Source: Vineibacter terrae (GTDB taxonomy: Bacteria > Pseudomonadota > Alphaproteobacteria > Reyranellales > Reyranellaceae). From it: 64,000 bases of DNA. The notes under the pieces are model-generated. The model ran no database searches. It saw only the letters and a program-made list of their open reading frames with translations, and was not told the DNA's origin. A program made the translations under genes and the position numbers. Where the stretch lies: contig NZ_VDUZ01000010.1 of NCBI RefSeq assembly GCF_008039615.1, positions 62,001 through 126,000 on the forward strand, written 5' to 3'. This document shows positions 3,693 to 54,155 of this stretch, in pieces (position 1 is the stretch's first letter; each line of letters starts with the position of its first letter).

Positions 3693-3721
3693 GCGATCGG
3701 CCCGGGAGCGTCGGTTTTCGA

Positions 3722-3871
3722 CTACCTTCCCCCGCTTGCGGGGGAAGGTGGCGCGAAGCGCCGGATGGGGGACGCTTCAACGCAAATGGTGTATCCCATC
3801 GAGCATCCGCGTCGTTGCAACGCCCCCCATCCGCCCTTCGGGCACCTTCCCCCGCAAGCGGGGGAAGGTAG
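3722..3871. repeat. Inverted pair of family B repeats in a gene-free stretch
   Basis: This fills most of the gap 3693-4046. The left copy (from 3722) reads CTACCTTCCCCC, a GGGGGAAGG arm, then a GGCGC/GCGCC mini-hairpin and GGATGGGGG. The right copy is its reverse complement and ends at 3871. The mini-hairpin bases differ between copies but keep pairing (GGCGCGAAGCGCC versus GCCCTTCGGGC). The spacer of about 55 bases holds no gene. Rest of the gap: nothing recognised. Confidence 0.8.
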
Positions 3872-4046
3872 AGGGCATCGCTGAAATTCACCAGCTCAAC
3901 GCCTTATGAGATAGCCCTGCGGGTAGCCGGGTGCTTCAGAAGCTGCACGATGCAGCGTCTTGCGGGCACGGATTTCGCCTCAGTCCAAGACCGGACCGCG
4001 GTTTTCGTGCACATTCGTCGAGTGCAACGTCACCGACGAGGATGCC

Positions 4047-5826: not shown

Positions 5827-7116
5827 CTATGCCGCCGAGACCTCGCGCTCGATCAGGTCGCCCAGCTTGGCGATGGCCGCGTCGCGCAGATGCGGGATGT
5901 ACTGCGTCGGGAAGAGCTGGTTGGTGCCGTGATAGTCACGCAGCACCTGGCGCGCCACGGTCACCTTGTGCACCTCGGTAGGCCCGTCGGCGAGGCCCAT
6001 GTGGAAGCTCTCGATCACCTGCTCGGCGAAAGGCATGTCGGGCGTCACGCCCAGCGAGCCGTGCAGGTGCAGCGCCCGCGCCGCGACGTCGTGGAAGATC
6101 TTGGGCATCAGCGCCTTCACGGCCGAGATGTCCTTGCGGACCTTCATGTAGTCCTTGTGCTTGTCGATCTTCCAGGCGGTCTGCAGCACCAGGAGGCGGA
6201 ACTGCTCGATCTCCATCCAGCTGTCGGCGATCTTCTCCTGCACCATCTGCTTGTCGGCCAGCAGCGAGCCCTGCGTCTCGCGTGACAGCACCCGCTCGCA
6301 CATCATGTCGAACGACTTCTTCACCTGGCCGATCGTGCGCATCGCATGGTGGATGCGGCCGCCGCCCAGCCGGGTCTGCGCCACGACGAAGCCGTCGCCG
6401 CGGTTGCCCAGCATGTGGTCCTTCGGGATGCGCACGTTGTTGTAGCGCAGGTAGGCGTGGCCGGGCTTGGAATGGTAGCCGACCGGCATGTTGCGGATCA
6501 TCTCGATACCGGGGGTCTCGGCCGGCACGATGAATTGCGACAGGCGGCGATAGGGCGGGGCCTGCGGATCGGTCACCGCCATGACGATCAGGAAGCTGGC
6601 GAGATGGGCGTGCGAGGAGAACCATTTCTCGCCGTTGATCACCCATTCGTCGCCGTCGAGCTCGGCGCGGCAGGTGAAGACCTTCGGGTCGGCGCCGCCC
6701 TGCGGCTCGGTCATCGAGAAGCAGGAGACGATCTCGTTATCGAGCAGCGGCTGCAGATACTTCTTCTTCTGCGCCGGCGTGCCGTAATGGGCGAGGATCT
6801 CGGCGTTGCCGCTGTCGGGCGCCTGGCAGCCGAAGACGATCGGCCCGAAATGCGAGCGGCCCAGAATCTCGTTGAGCAGCCCCAGCTTGACCTGGCCGTA
6901 TCCCTGGCCGCCGAGGTCAGGTCCCAGGTGGCAGGCCCACAAGCCCTGCCGCCGCACTTCGGCCTGCAGCGGCTTGACCGCCTTGTTGCGCTTCTCGTTC
7001 TTCACGTCGTAGGACTGGACGCCGAGGTAGTCGAGCGGCTCGACCTCGTCCTTCACGAAGCGCATCACCCAATCCAGCTTCTTCTGGTAGTCGGGATCGG
7101 TCTCGAAGCTCCACAT
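5827..7116 (-). CDS. Acyl-CoA dehydrogenase family protein
   Basis: FAD-dependent oxidation of an acyl-CoA thioester to the enoyl-CoA. The 429 residues cover the N-terminal helical, middle beta (TEPQGGADP, GEKWFSS) and C-terminal helical domains, with LHLHGSLGVTPDMPF near the C-terminal end and EVHKVTVARQVL as the usual tail motif. It resembles the longer ~410-430 residue members often annotated as acyl-CoA dehydrogenase with unknown substrate. A clear GGAGGACGCC ribosome site precedes ATG 7116. The LysR gene at 7320 is divergent and is the likely regulator. Confidence 0.9.
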   Translation of the reverse strand: MWSFETDPDYQKKLDWVMRFVKDEVEPLDYLGVQSYDVKNEKRNKAVKPLQAEVRRQGLWACHLGPDLGGQGYGQVKLGLLNEILGRSHFGPIVFGCQAPDSGNAEILAHYGTPAQKKKYLQPLLDNEIVSCFSMTEPQGGADPKVFTCRAELDGDEWVINGEKWFSSHAHLASFLIVMAVTDPQAPPYRRLSQFIVPAETPGIEMIRNMPVGYHSKPGHAYLRYNNVRIPKDHMLGNRGDGFVVAQTRLGGGRIHHAMRTIGQVKKSFDMMCERVLSRETQGSLLADKQMVQEKIADSWMEIEQFRLLVLQTAWKIDKHKDYMKVRKDISAVKALMPKIFHDVAARALHLHGSLGVTPDMPFAEQVIESFHMGLADGPTEVHKVTVARQVLRDYHGTNQLFPTQYIPHLRDAAIAKLGDLIEREVSAA

Positions 7117-7137: not shown

Positions 7138-7210
7138 GGTCGGGCCGCGTCGCTCCAGCGACGCTCATGGATCGCCCGACGGAAGCGCGCTGCAGCGGCG
7201 CGGCCCGGCC
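7138..7210. repeat. Composite palindrome, family A, copy 1
   Basis: The left arm (7138-7164) contains an internal hairpin GCGTCGCT-CC-AGCGACGC. The right arm (7185-7210) is its imperfect reverse complement, and TCATGGATC follows the left hairpin. The architecture matches copies at 12108-12191 and 48626-48706. It lies between the acyl-CoA dehydrogenase and LysR genes. Confidence 0.75.
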
Positions 7211-7319: not shown

Positions 7320-8252
7320 ATGGACCTCGACGCCAAGCCCTACCGCGCTTTCGTCGCCGTCGCCGAGGAACGCTCCTTCGGCCGGGCTGCGGCGCGGCTC
7401 AACGTCTCGCAGCCGGCGCTGTCGGCGCAGATACGCGAATTCGAACGCCGTCTCGGCTTCGCGCTTTTCCAGCGCACCAGCCGCAGCGTCGAGCTGACGG
7501 CGCAGGGTCGCCTGTTCCTCGGCAACGCGCGGCGCATGGTGGCGGAGACCGAAGGGGCTGCGCTGGCCGCGCGGGCGATCCGCACCAACCAGCTCACCAT
7601 CGGCGCCGCGATCGAGACGGTGCTGGTGCCCGAGCGCGTGGCGCTGCTGGAGCGCTTCCTGATGCGGCGGCCGGATATCCCGCTGCGCATCACCAATGAC
7701 ACCAACGGCCGGCACCTCGCGGCGGTCGCGCGGCGCGAGATCGACCTTGCGCTGCTGATCGAGCCCATGCTGGGGCCGGCGCCGACCTATTCGCCGCTCG
7801 ATGCCGGTGGTGCCGTGGCGGCGGATCTCGAGCGGCAGATCCTGGGCCAGCGGCGGGTCGAGATCCTGGTGCCGCGCGAGCATCCGGCCAGCCGGCTGGC
7901 GGTGCTGCCGCGGTCGGTGCTGGACGGCTTGCCGGTCGTGACCTTCGATCGCACCCACGGCATTGCGCTGACCGATGCGATCGGCCGGTTCTTGCACGAT
8001 ACCGGCGCCAACATCGTGCGGGCGCCCGAGCGCAACGCCCTGGCGGTCGAGCGCTACGGCGCCGTGACGCGCACGCCGGCGATGAGCCTGGGCTGGTTCG
8101 GCCGCTCGCACCTGAAGGGATTGGCGCCGGTGGTGAGCCGGCCCGTCGAGGGACTGGAGGCGGCCACCGGCCTGACTTTATTGCGCGCCAAGGGCGAGGA
8201 GCGTCCGGCAGCGACGGCCTTCTGGGCGATGGCGGTGGAGTCGGCGGTGTAG
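7320..8252 (+). CDS. LysR-family transcriptional regulator
   Basis: A 310-residue LysR-type regulator. The N-terminal winged helix-turn-helix is clear (FVAVAEERSFGRAAARLNVSQPALSAQIREFE, about residues 9-40), followed by the linker helix and a periplasmic-binding-like effector domain (about 90-300). ATG 7320 puts the DNA-binding domain at the N terminus; an upstream in-frame start at 7167 lies in the family A palindrome and is unlikely. It is divergent from the acyl-CoA dehydrogenase gene, the probable target. Effector unknown. Confidence 0.9.
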   Translation: MDLDAKPYRAFVAVAEERSFGRAAARLNVSQPALSAQIREFERRLGFALFQRTSRSVELTAQGRLFLGNARRMVAETEGAALAARAIRTNQLTIGAAIETVLVPERVALLERFLMRRPDIPLRITNDTNGRHLAAVARREIDLALLIEPMLGPAPTYSPLDAGGAVAADLERQILGQRRVEILVPREHPASRLAVLPRSVLDGLPVVTFDRTHGIALTDAIGRFLHDTGANIVRAPERNALAVERYGAVTRTPAMSLGWFGRSHLKGLAPVVSRPVEGLEAATGLTLLRAKGEERPAATAFWAMAVESAV

Positions 8253-12107: not shown

Positions 12108-12191
12108 TTTTTCGGACCGCGCGCGTCCACGCGCGCTCATGATCCGGCGCTGCCGCGCCGGTGCGCGCGCGGACGCGCGCGGTCCGAAAAA
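12108..12191. repeat. Composite palindrome, family A, copy 2
   Basis: Two 29-base arms (12108-12136 and 12163-12191) match at 28 positions in inverted orientation. Each arm contains a small hairpin with a two-base loop (left: GCGCGCGT-CC-ACGCGCGC). A third hairpin CCGGCGC-TGCC-GCGCCGG sits in the centre (12144-12161). TCATGATCC follows the left hairpin. It fills the space between dnaE and the DUF72 gene. The outer T and A runs are part of the stem, so this is not a standard intrinsic terminator. Confidence 0.85.
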
Positions 12192-13778: not shown

Positions 13779-13875
13779 GGAATGGCGAGATCATTCAGCG
13801 CCCGCTGTCGCGACCTCTTGCAAAGCTGGCGGCGGCCCTGTATCACGCGCGCCATCTCGCACGCGGGGCTGCGGT

Positions 13876-13944
13876 CGGCGGGGAGAAATCCCGCCGTTCG
13901 CTCCGGTGTCCGCAAGGACGACCCCCGCGGAGGCTCAACCGGAG
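13876..13944 (+). promoter_or_regulatory. Structured rpsB leader, possible ribosome-site sequestration
   Basis: Three pairings can be drawn: CGGCGGG/CCCGCCG (13876-13896), a GTCC-GCAA-GGAC hairpin with a GNRA loop (13908-13919), and CTCCGG (13901-13906) with CCGGAG (13939-13944). The last one covers the start of the rpsB ribosome site GGAGAAGG. Feedback control of rpsB-tsf by S2 through the leader is known in Escherichia coli; its use here is inference. Confidence 0.4.
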
Positions 13945-13952
13945 AAGGTTAG

Positions 13953-14747
13953 ATGACGATTCCATCGTTCACGATGCGTCAGCTGCTGGAAGCTGGCGTG
14001 CATTTCGGCCACCACACCCGCCGCTGGAACCCCAAGATGAAGCCGTACCTGTTCGGGGTGCGCAACGGGGTGCACATCATCGATCTGACGCAGACCGTGC
14101 CCCTGCTGGAGCAGGCGATGCGGGTCGTGCGCGACACGGTGGCCGCGGGCGGGCGCGTGCTCTTCGTCGGCACCAAGCCGGCAGCGGCCGAGCGCGTCGC
14201 CGAGGGGGCGCGGCGCTGCGGCCAGTACTTCGTCAACCACCGCTGGCTCGGCGGCATGATGACCAACTGGCAGACCATCTCGGCCTCGATCAAGCGGCTG
14301 CGCGAGCTCGACGACAAGCTGGCCGGTGACGTGGTCGGCCTGACCAAGAAGGAGACGCTGGACCTGTCGCGCGAGCGCGACAAGCTCGAGCGCTCGCTGG
14401 GCGGCATCAAGGAGATGGGCGGCCTGCCTGACATCCTGATCGTGATCGACACCAACAAGGAGGCGATCGCGGTGCAGGAGGCGCGCAAGCGCGGCATCCC
14501 GATCGTGGCCATCCTGGACAGCAACTCCGATCCGGACGGCATCACCTATCCGGTGCCGGGCAACGACGACGCCATCCGCGCCATCTCGCTGTATTGCGAG
14601 CTGCTGTCGGGCGCCGTGCTCGACGGCATCCGCGAGGAGATCAAGGCGTCGGGCGGTGATATCGGCGAGGTCGCCGAGCCGCTGCCGGAGGAGCTGCCGG
14701 ACGTGACCGAGTTGGCGCCCGAGGAAAGCCCGGCCCCGGCTGCCTGA
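13953..14747 (+). CDS. rpsB: 30S ribosomal protein S2
   Basis: Structural protein of the small ribosomal subunit, bound between head and body near bS1. The 264 residues carry the S2 signatures: [22 protein letters not shown] at the start, the [13 protein letters not shown] segment near residue 75, [12 protein letters not shown] near 95, and [20 protein letters not shown] near 160. The C-terminal tail is acidic and proline-rich as in other Alphaproteobacteria. GGAGAAGG lies 5 bases before ATG 13953. It heads the cluster rpsB-tsf-pyrH-frr. Confidence 0.98.
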
Positions 14748-48196: not shown

Positions 48197-48517
48197 TCAG
48201 GCGGGCGTCAGCAGCTTCAACCCGACGATGCCGCAGACGATCAGGCCGATGCAGGCCAGGCGCAGCACCGCCGTCGATTCGCCCAGCACGAGCATGCCGA
48301 CAATCACGGTGCCGACGGTGCCGATGCCGGTCCAGATGGCGTAGGCGGTGCCCAGCGGCAGGGTGCGCAGGGCGAGGCCCAGCAGGCCCAGGCTCGCCGC
48401 CATGCTGACGATCGTCGCGATGGTGGGCAGCGGACGCGTGAAGCCGTCGGTGTATTTCAGGCCGACGGCCCAGCCGATCTCGAGAAGGCCGGCGAAGAAA
48501 AGATAGACCCAAGCCAT
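48197..48517 (-). CDS. gdx: SMR-family guanidinium exporter Gdx (SugE type)
   Basis: Small multidrug-resistance dimer in the inner membrane that exchanges guanidinium for protons. The 106-residue product has four membrane helices, and its sequence is of the SugE/Gdx subtype: [18 protein letters not shown] with the essential Glu13 in helix 1, and [19 protein letters not shown] (about 55-73). Start ATG 48517 is decided by GGAGGG 5 bases upstream; an ATG at 48535 lies within the riboswitch fold. The guanidine-II riboswitch directly upstream supports the Gdx assignment over a general drug exporter. Confidence 0.95.
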
Positions 48518-48535
48518 GGCAACCCTCCGGTCCAT

Positions 48536-48588
48536 GACAGGGTCGTCCCCGTCGATCGATCATAGAAAAACGCCAGGTCGTCCTGGCG
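48536..48588 (-). ncRNA. Guanidine-II riboswitch (mini-ykkC motif)
   Basis: On the minus strand two hairpins with the same ACGA tetraloop lie in series: CGCCAGG-ACGA-CCTGGCG (48588-48571) and GACGGGG-ACGA-CCCTGTC (48553-48536, one G-U pair). Two stem-loops with ACGR loops in front of a gdx gene define the guanidine-II class. The second hairpin ends about 9 bases before the GGAGGG ribosome site, which fits control of translation start by ligand. Confidence 0.92.
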
Positions 48589-48625
48589 TTCATCATTATA
48601 TGGGGATGGCCAAGGCCCGTTTCAA

Positions 48626-48706
48626 GGTCGGGCCGCGGCGCTCCAGCGCCGCATCCGGCGCGTAGCGCCGGACCTATGAGCGGCGCTGGAGCGCCGCGGC
48701 CCGACC
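48626..48706. repeat. Composite palindrome, family A, copy 3
   Basis: Two perfect 27-base inverted arms (48626-48652 and 48680-48706). Each arm contains the hairpin GCGGCGCT-CC-AGCGCCGC or its complement. A third hairpin TCCGGCGC-GTA-GCGCCGGA (48654-48672) sits in the centre. Read on the minus strand, TCATAGGTCCGGCGC follows the first arm, matching copy 2. It lies between the gdx riboswitch and the 3' end of the formamidase-like gene. Confidence 0.9.
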
Positions 48707-53134: not shown

Positions 53135-53157
53135 TCTTTTCGCTCCCTTCTGGTGGC

Positions 53158-53243
53158 CTTCATGGTGAGCTTGTCGAACCATGAAGGCCTCGCACAGCGG
53201 TCCGTGCGTGGCGCTTCATGGTTCGACAAGCTCACCATGAAGC
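53158..53243. repeat. Inverted repeat, family D
   Basis: CTTCATGGTGAGCTTG at 53158 is mirrored by CAAGCTCACCATGAAG ending at 53242; inside, GTCGAACCATGAAG faces CTTCATGGTTCGAC. A second copy lies at 53940-54023. It separates the RidA gene from the binding-protein gene. Confidence 0.85.
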
Positions 53244-53251
53244 TTTTCCTT

Positions 53252-53710
53252 TTACTCGGTGTACGCCACGACGAGCTCGATCTCGACGGCGGCGTTGCGC
53301 GGCAGCTCGGCGACGCCGACGGCGGAGCGCGCATGCCGGCCCTTGTCCTCGAACAGGGCGACCAGCAGGTCGGAGGCGGCGTCGATCACCTTGGGCTGGT
53401 CGTTGAAGCCGGGGGCCGAGGCGACGAAGCCCGTGACCTTCAGGATCCGCTCGACGCGGGCCAGGTCGCCCAGGGCATCGGCCAGGCAGGCGATACCCTG
53501 CAGCACGCAGATGCGGGCCTCCTCGCGCGCGGCATCAAGCGACACCTCGCGCCCGACCTTGCCGAAGACGCGCACCTCGCCGTCGACCTTGGGCAGCTGG
53601 CCGCTGACATAGGCCACGCCCTGATGCAGGCTCACCGGCGTGTAGTTGAAGGTCGGCTGCGCCGCCGGCGGCAGGACCAGGCCCAGGCGCTTCAGTCGTT
53701 CAGCGATCAT
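53252..53710 (-). CDS. RidA/YjgF-family protein
   Basis: A 152-residue member of the Rid superfamily; canonical members deaminate reactive enamines and imines, others act as amidohydrolases or endoribonucleases. It shows the YVSGQLPKVDGEV segment (about 34-46), and GVAELPRNAAVEIELVVAY near the C terminus. Canonical RidA has an Arg in its R-x-x-V/C-x-x-x-x-LP-x-x-x-x-VEI motif; here RSAVGVAELPRNAAVEIE keeps it. Its length exceeds the usual ~128, as in Rid subgroups found beside transporters. It lies in the importer cluster, so it may act on the imported compound. Confidence 0.88.
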   Translation of the reverse strand: MIAERLKRLGLVLPPAAQPTFNYTPVSLHQGVAYVSGQLPKVDGEVRVFGKVGREVSLDAAREEARICVLQGIACLADALGDLARVERILKVTGFVASAPGFNDQPKVIDAASDLLVALFEDKGRHARSAVGVAELPRNAAVEIELVVAYTE

Positions 53711-53722
53711 GTCGTCACCCCT

Positions 53723-54155
53723 CTGTCGTCCCGAGCGAAGCGAAGGATCTTGCGGTGCGTCGATCGCACGAGCGGTGCGATGGGAGGGAAAAAGACTTCA
53801 TCACAGAGACACGGAGGGCACAGAGGAACACAGAGAAAACCAACTGCGCGCCGTCGGCGCGCAACATTCTTCTTTCTCCGTGCTCCTCTGTATCCTCTGA
53901 CCTCAAGAATCTTCGCAAGCCGCGGCGATTTTTTATAGCCTTCATGGTGAGCCTGTCGAACCATGAAGGCGTCGCACGGACAGTGGTGCGGCGCTTCATG
54001 GTTCGACAAGCTCACCATGAAGCGTTTTTCCGCCGTTTGGGTTGCGGCCAACGGCTGCGCTGTGTCGCTGTGGTTTGACTTTCCGCGGTAGTTGGTTCGC
54101 GCCATTGCAAGTGATCGGCGCGCCGCAAGGTCCTTCGCTTCGCTCAGGACGACAG
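53723..54155. repeat. Nested repeat island (families D, E and F)
   Basis: This fills the gene-free stretch 53711-54176. From outside in: family E, CTGTCGTCCCGAGCG... (53723-53759), and its inverted partner at 54121-54155 (CGCTTCGCTCAGGACGAC). Inside lie an A/G-rich element (53801-53839, ACAGAGACACGG type) with its inverted partner (53869-53900) around a GCGCGCC/GGCGCGC hairpin, and a family D copy (53940-54023). No gene is seen. Confidence 0.8.

Follow-up and report, generated by a model that had tools for sequence, protein, structure and literature searches.

The window analysed here, a stretch of 64 kb, contains an acyl-CoA dehydrogenase gene (5827-7116, minus strand) that diverges from a gene for a LysR-family regulator (7320-8252, plus strand). 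The gap between them holds a short palindromic repeat at 7138-7210 on the plus strand (69138-69210 of contig C10), about 21 bp from the start of the dehydrogenase gene. The left arm of this repeat, hereafter copy 1, is intact (7138-7164) and consists of GGTCGGGCC joined to GCGTCGCT[CC]AGCGACGC and then TCATG. The perfect 8-bp hairpin with a CC loop that had been predicted from the sequence is present at 7147-7164 on the plus strand (GCGTCGCT-CC-AGCGACGC), and its flanks, GGTCGGGCC before and TCATGGATC after, are as described. The right arm reads GCGCGCTGCAGCGGCGC and ends in GGCCCGGCC; it is decayed and has lost the perfect hairpin. With one intact arm lost, copy 1 is probably now immobile.

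Two intact copies lie elsewhere in the window, and the stems originally quoted for them were exact. Copy 2 (12110-12189, plus strand) is situated between dnaE on one side and a DUF72 gene on the other. Its stem is GCGCGCGT/ACGCGCGC at 12119, its foot GGACC and its outer sequences TTTCGGACC/GGTCCGAAA, and its stem/foot subfamily differs from that of copy 1. Copy 3 (48626-48706, minus strand) belongs to stem subfamily GCGGCGCT, with the stem GCGGCGCT/AGCGCCGC at 48635 and its partner arm, on the minus strand, at 48697; it lies in the opposite orientation to copy 1, a few bp beyond the stop codon of an alpha/beta-hydrolase gene. A guanidine-II riboswitch (48538-48589, minus strand), 37 bp from copy 3, precedes a gene for small multidrug resistance (48197-48535, minus strand).

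The unit is an inverted pair of REP arms of about 27 nt, spanning 73-81 nt in all (about 80 nt when intact). Intact copies run in the order GGTCGGGCC, 8-bp hairpin with CC loop, TCATG, mirror hairpin and GGCCCGACC, and an inner hairpin, CCGGCGC...GCGCCGG, often sits between the two arms. The two arms of a pair often carry different stem variants, for example GCGTCGCT with GCGCCGCT. Copy 1 has a damaged right arm and lacks the inner hairpin. Two REP arms inverted about a short spacer, together able to form a single long hairpin, define a REPIN; copies 2 and 3 show this arrangement in full and copy 1 in part. As single-stranded DNA, the three units fold far more strongly than shuffled sequences (z = -3.9, -9.4 and -12.4). 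An Rfam search gave no match at the gathering score over the repeat; the same database gave an rpsB sRNA match just above its gathering score at 13858-13956 (plus strand). The window also contains, at 53156-54027, two pairs of near-identical palindromic repeats of 38-40 nt (CTTCATGGT...ACCATGAAG type; 95-97% alike, about 780 bp apart), and a further short palindrome, CCTTCCCCCGC..GCGGGGGAAGG, which is repeated and occurs at least twice (3717-3881 and 17-61).

Although the original prediction of a three-copy family sharing one plan was right in that three copies exist in the window, the family is far larger and copy 2 represents another stem/foot subfamily. The covariance-model scan that had been proposed, applied to the 8.76-Mb host genome (135 contigs), which belongs in the Reyranellaceae neighbourhood of the Alphaproteobacteria, located at least 95 distinct REPIN places, in agreement with blastn and pattern searches. 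Exact class-A arms (CCGCGNCGCTCCAGCGNCGC) number 152 in the genome, against 0 for a reversed control, and arms of the copy 2 type number 86, again against 0. These copy numbers are lower bounds, because scoring was confined to the top candidates and because some dozen contigs break off within a copy; the latter also accounts for part of the fragmentation of the assembly.

The stems were predicted to vary and yet to pair, and this was borne out. Since covariation counted on covariance-model matches is biased towards pairing, we used a pattern that leaves one stem pair unconstrained, applied to the loci found by the covariance model. The free pair was paired in all 134 class-A arms of the fetched loci (shuffle mean 70), as C-G in 66, T-A in 37, G-C in 29 and T-G in 2, and was never unpaired; 100 class-A matches listed genome-wide agree. 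The 134 counts are copies rather than independent events, yet wholly different stems in other classes and other genomes point to the same pairing rule.

Of the 82 copies that could be scored, at least 55 fall between genes; a crude codon-usage gene caller, which over-extends starts, rates 84% of the DNA as coding. By the same caller, copies are found in convergent or codirectional contexts more commonly than in divergent ones. In about 15 REPINs of the genome the terminal repeats are some 11 nt longer (GCTGGTGACGG), and another dispersed repeat, GTCGTCCTGAGCGAAGCGAAGGACCTTGCGGTGG, flanks some of these on either side, giving nested composites of about 200 bp (L145, L151, L181, L187, L190 and L191, around position 1500). 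One TCCTGAGCG...CGAAGGACC stretch of this outer repeat lies in the window (54137-54149, minus strand). A search for the empty palindrome of the long-arm class, CTGGTGACG adjoining CGTCACCAG with no REPIN between, returned 0 matches, and a pre-existing target palindrome for this class is therefore unsupported.

The 64-kb window contains no transposase, as had been noted, and both Y1 genes of the genome lie outside it. RAYT-A (L001:1426-2007, minus strand; contig C74) sits exactly between inverted arms, with GGTCGGGCCGCGCCGCTCCAGCGGCGC at about L001:1395-1421 and the exact reverse complement of this sequence at about L001:2019-2045. This framing arm is the same arm as that of the REPIN family, of the GCGCCGCT class, which supports the original suggestion of a mobile REP-like element served by an unlinked transposase. 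The RAYT-A product matches Pfam Y1_Tnp above the cut-off, falls just under the curated cut-off of 80 for NCBIfam REP_Tyr_transpos (78.3 bits, E 5e-22) and matches E. coli TnpAREP in the PDB (4er8, E 9e-6). Its HUH and tyrosine motifs are intact: PNHVH and the tyrosine of YIEENPV are 60 residues apart, within the published range for TnpAREP (PMC6006769).

The second gene, RAYT-B (L002:1228-1809, plus strand), lies between copies of another REP, GGGAGNGCCGGCTTCCAGCCGGC, with 27 genomic matches against 0 for the control; each RAYT gene therefore has its own REP family. RAYT-B is probably inactive, because its HUH motif reads PNYVH and the first histidine is gone. For the GCGCGCGT class of copy 2 (arm GCGCGCGTCCACGCGCGC) this assembly contains no matching RAYT. 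Either RAYT-A accepts this class as well, or the enzyme of that class was lost.

Among named genomes, those of Reyranella and Reyranellaceae have the closest RAYTs, with about 61% identity. The RAYT relatives examined, which span alphaproteobacteria, Gallionella and Nitrococcus, are nearly all framed by arms of the same plan: a GG-R-S-C foot, a GC-rich stem of 7-8 bp whose letters differ between lineages and, in most cases, a (T)CC loop. Under strict filters, REPINs that fit the model fully or almost fully were scored in 30 of 36 same-family genomes besides the host and in 0 of 24 outside the family. In six genomes the stem at the RAYT gene is the sampled REPIN stem of the same genome: GCGGGCCT in G028, GCGCCACT in G017, G030 and G012, and GCGYCGCT in G007 and G002. 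A RAYT tree, built with a quick method, places the four RAYTs with GCGCCGCT arms inside one supported clade of six. Several genomes of the family have many REPINs but no RAYT-A relative at 1e-10 (for example G015, with 66 matches).

Comparison of insertion sites in close relatives, also proposed at the outset, showed that copies 1 and 2 have congeneric counterparts without the element. In G002, which lacks copy 1, the acyl-CoA dehydrogenase and LysR genes lie about 75 bp closer together, and G003 lacks copy 2 downstream of dnaE; G002 carries a divergent REPIN at the latter site. The exact insertion boundaries cannot be fixed because the congeners have diverged.

The results presented above lead us to conclude, with high confidence, that copy 1 is a partly decayed, non-autonomous REPIN of a family very probably spread in trans by RAYT-A. 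The observations that carry this reading are direct ones: the repeat family, the paired stem, the arm-framed RAYT, the stem match at the RAYT genes of relatives and the empty orthologous sites. Movement of the doublet itself is putative; the empty sites fit mobility, and no event has been caught. Further points against this reading are the non-canonical foot, the absence from this genome of a RAYT matching the subfamily of copy 2, the NCBIfam score just below the curated cut-off and the family genomes that are rich in REPINs but have no RAYT-A relative at 1e-10. In the model we favour, RAYT-A would act in trans as a single-strand-specific Y1/HUH transposase. The arm would fold as single-stranded DNA, perhaps on the lagging strand, and RAYT-A would recognise the foot and the loop, as suggested by TnpAREP biochemistry (PMC8266576). 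Its tyrosine would presumably cut near the foot of the hairpin, and the enzyme may then excise the pair and rejoin it at mostly intergenic sites. Stem letters can drift because pairing matters more than sequence. Selection on structure and REP-like mobility, put forward originally as alternatives, are thus not rivals, because TnpAREP reads the foot and the hairpin or loop, so that stems may drift provided that they remain paired (PMC8266576).

Three other explanations deserve consideration. The palindromes might be retained as RNA or DNA control elements, such as transcription terminators or mRNA 3' stabilisers, with a host function under selection and mobility incidental. Their strong folds, their mostly intergenic positions, the excess of convergent or codirectional over divergent contexts and the location of copy 3 directly beyond a stop codon would all suit such a role. 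However, no T-run follows the hairpins, the element is absent at orthologous sites, a transposase gene is framed by the same arms and the stems track the transposase across relatives, so that we consider this explanation very improbable. We give still less credence to the view that the unit is a classical MITE derived from an insertion sequence of DDE type and that its terminal repeats are hairpins by chance. Long terminal inverted repeats, small size and dispersed copies are what such an element would have, but the one gene seen to lie between such ends is a Y1 RAYT, each arm forms a hairpin of its own, which is what a Y1 enzyme requires, and no target duplication is evident on inspection of the listed flanks. 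Least credible of all is that the hairpins arose by chance in a window of 68% GC. Hairpins of 8 bp with a 2-nt loop are indeed common (15 in the window) and not rare in themselves, but the combination of a foot (GGnSC), a perfect 7-8-bp stem and a (T)CC/TCT loop occurs 4 times in the window against 0.03 per window in Markov sequences; all four arms belong to copies 1-3, and the genome-wide count of 152 against 0 refutes chance.

Beyond the spread of the family by RAYT-A, we offer a broader scheme as speculation, and think it less likely than not to hold. These RAYTs may be a widespread class of enzymes that recognise a non-GTAG foot (GG-R-S-C) together with a (T)CC loop and are indifferent to the letters of the stem; a foot switch between GGAGC, GGACC and GGGCC might shift the cleavage dinucleotide predictably, one enzyme might move mixed-stem pairs, and the nested long-arm copies might be larger composite mobile units. 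The many matched enzyme/arm pairs, which differ chiefly in stem letters, constitute a natural data set on what a RAYT reads in the hairpin.

Among the papers searched, none joined REPIN, RAYT and Alphaproteobacteria, and the present work documents a REPIN/RAYT system and the enzyme cognate to it in a family of alphaproteobacteria. Assignment to two named REP superfamilies was rejected. The feet are GGGCC or GGACC and the canonical GT[AG]G of GTAG-tagged REPs is absent. CGTC-tagged REPs (PMC3733652) are common in alphaproteobacteria and mostly form head-head dimers, but they are defined by a CGTC end motif and have a loop of 4-5 nt, AT at the start of the stem and no associated transposase, whereas the arms described here have a 2-nt loop, a GC-rich stem and an attached RAYT. 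TIRtrons with double-palindromic TIRs (Di Nocera 2013, PMC3733652), which belong to other species and are compared here by description only, also have RAYT-like genes set between inverted repeats without GTAG; some of these repeats are self-complementary, and they form dispersed families. Group 3 TnpAREP and subclass 2.5 REPs, such as S. maltophilia REPtron Sm (PMC8266576, PMC6006769), resemble the present system in features: the short perfect palindrome of about 8 bp has a tiny loop, and RAYT-A has ordinary HUH-Tyr spacing. The loop is critical for the group 3 enzyme acting on a perfect 8-bp palindrome (PMC8266576), which fits the invariant loop and drifting stems found here, but that enzyme cuts only with GTAG (PMC8266576, PMC6006769), and the foot here lacks it. 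A close parallel in organisation is the REPIN/RAYT system of Bertels and Rainey (2011; PMC3116915), with an inverted REP doublet of similar length, a spacer, a predicted long hairpin, a mostly extragenic distribution and a matching RAYT gene that has this REP on its flanks; that study, too, reported compensatory changes. The present family differs in being alphaproteobacterial, in its GGGCC/GGACC foot and in pairs that often mix two stems. It is a well-formed REPIN/RAYT system of the ordinary kind and, as far as the literature searched shows, a new one for this bacterial family; its unusual points are the non-GTAG foot, a modest variation, and the pairing of arms with different stems.
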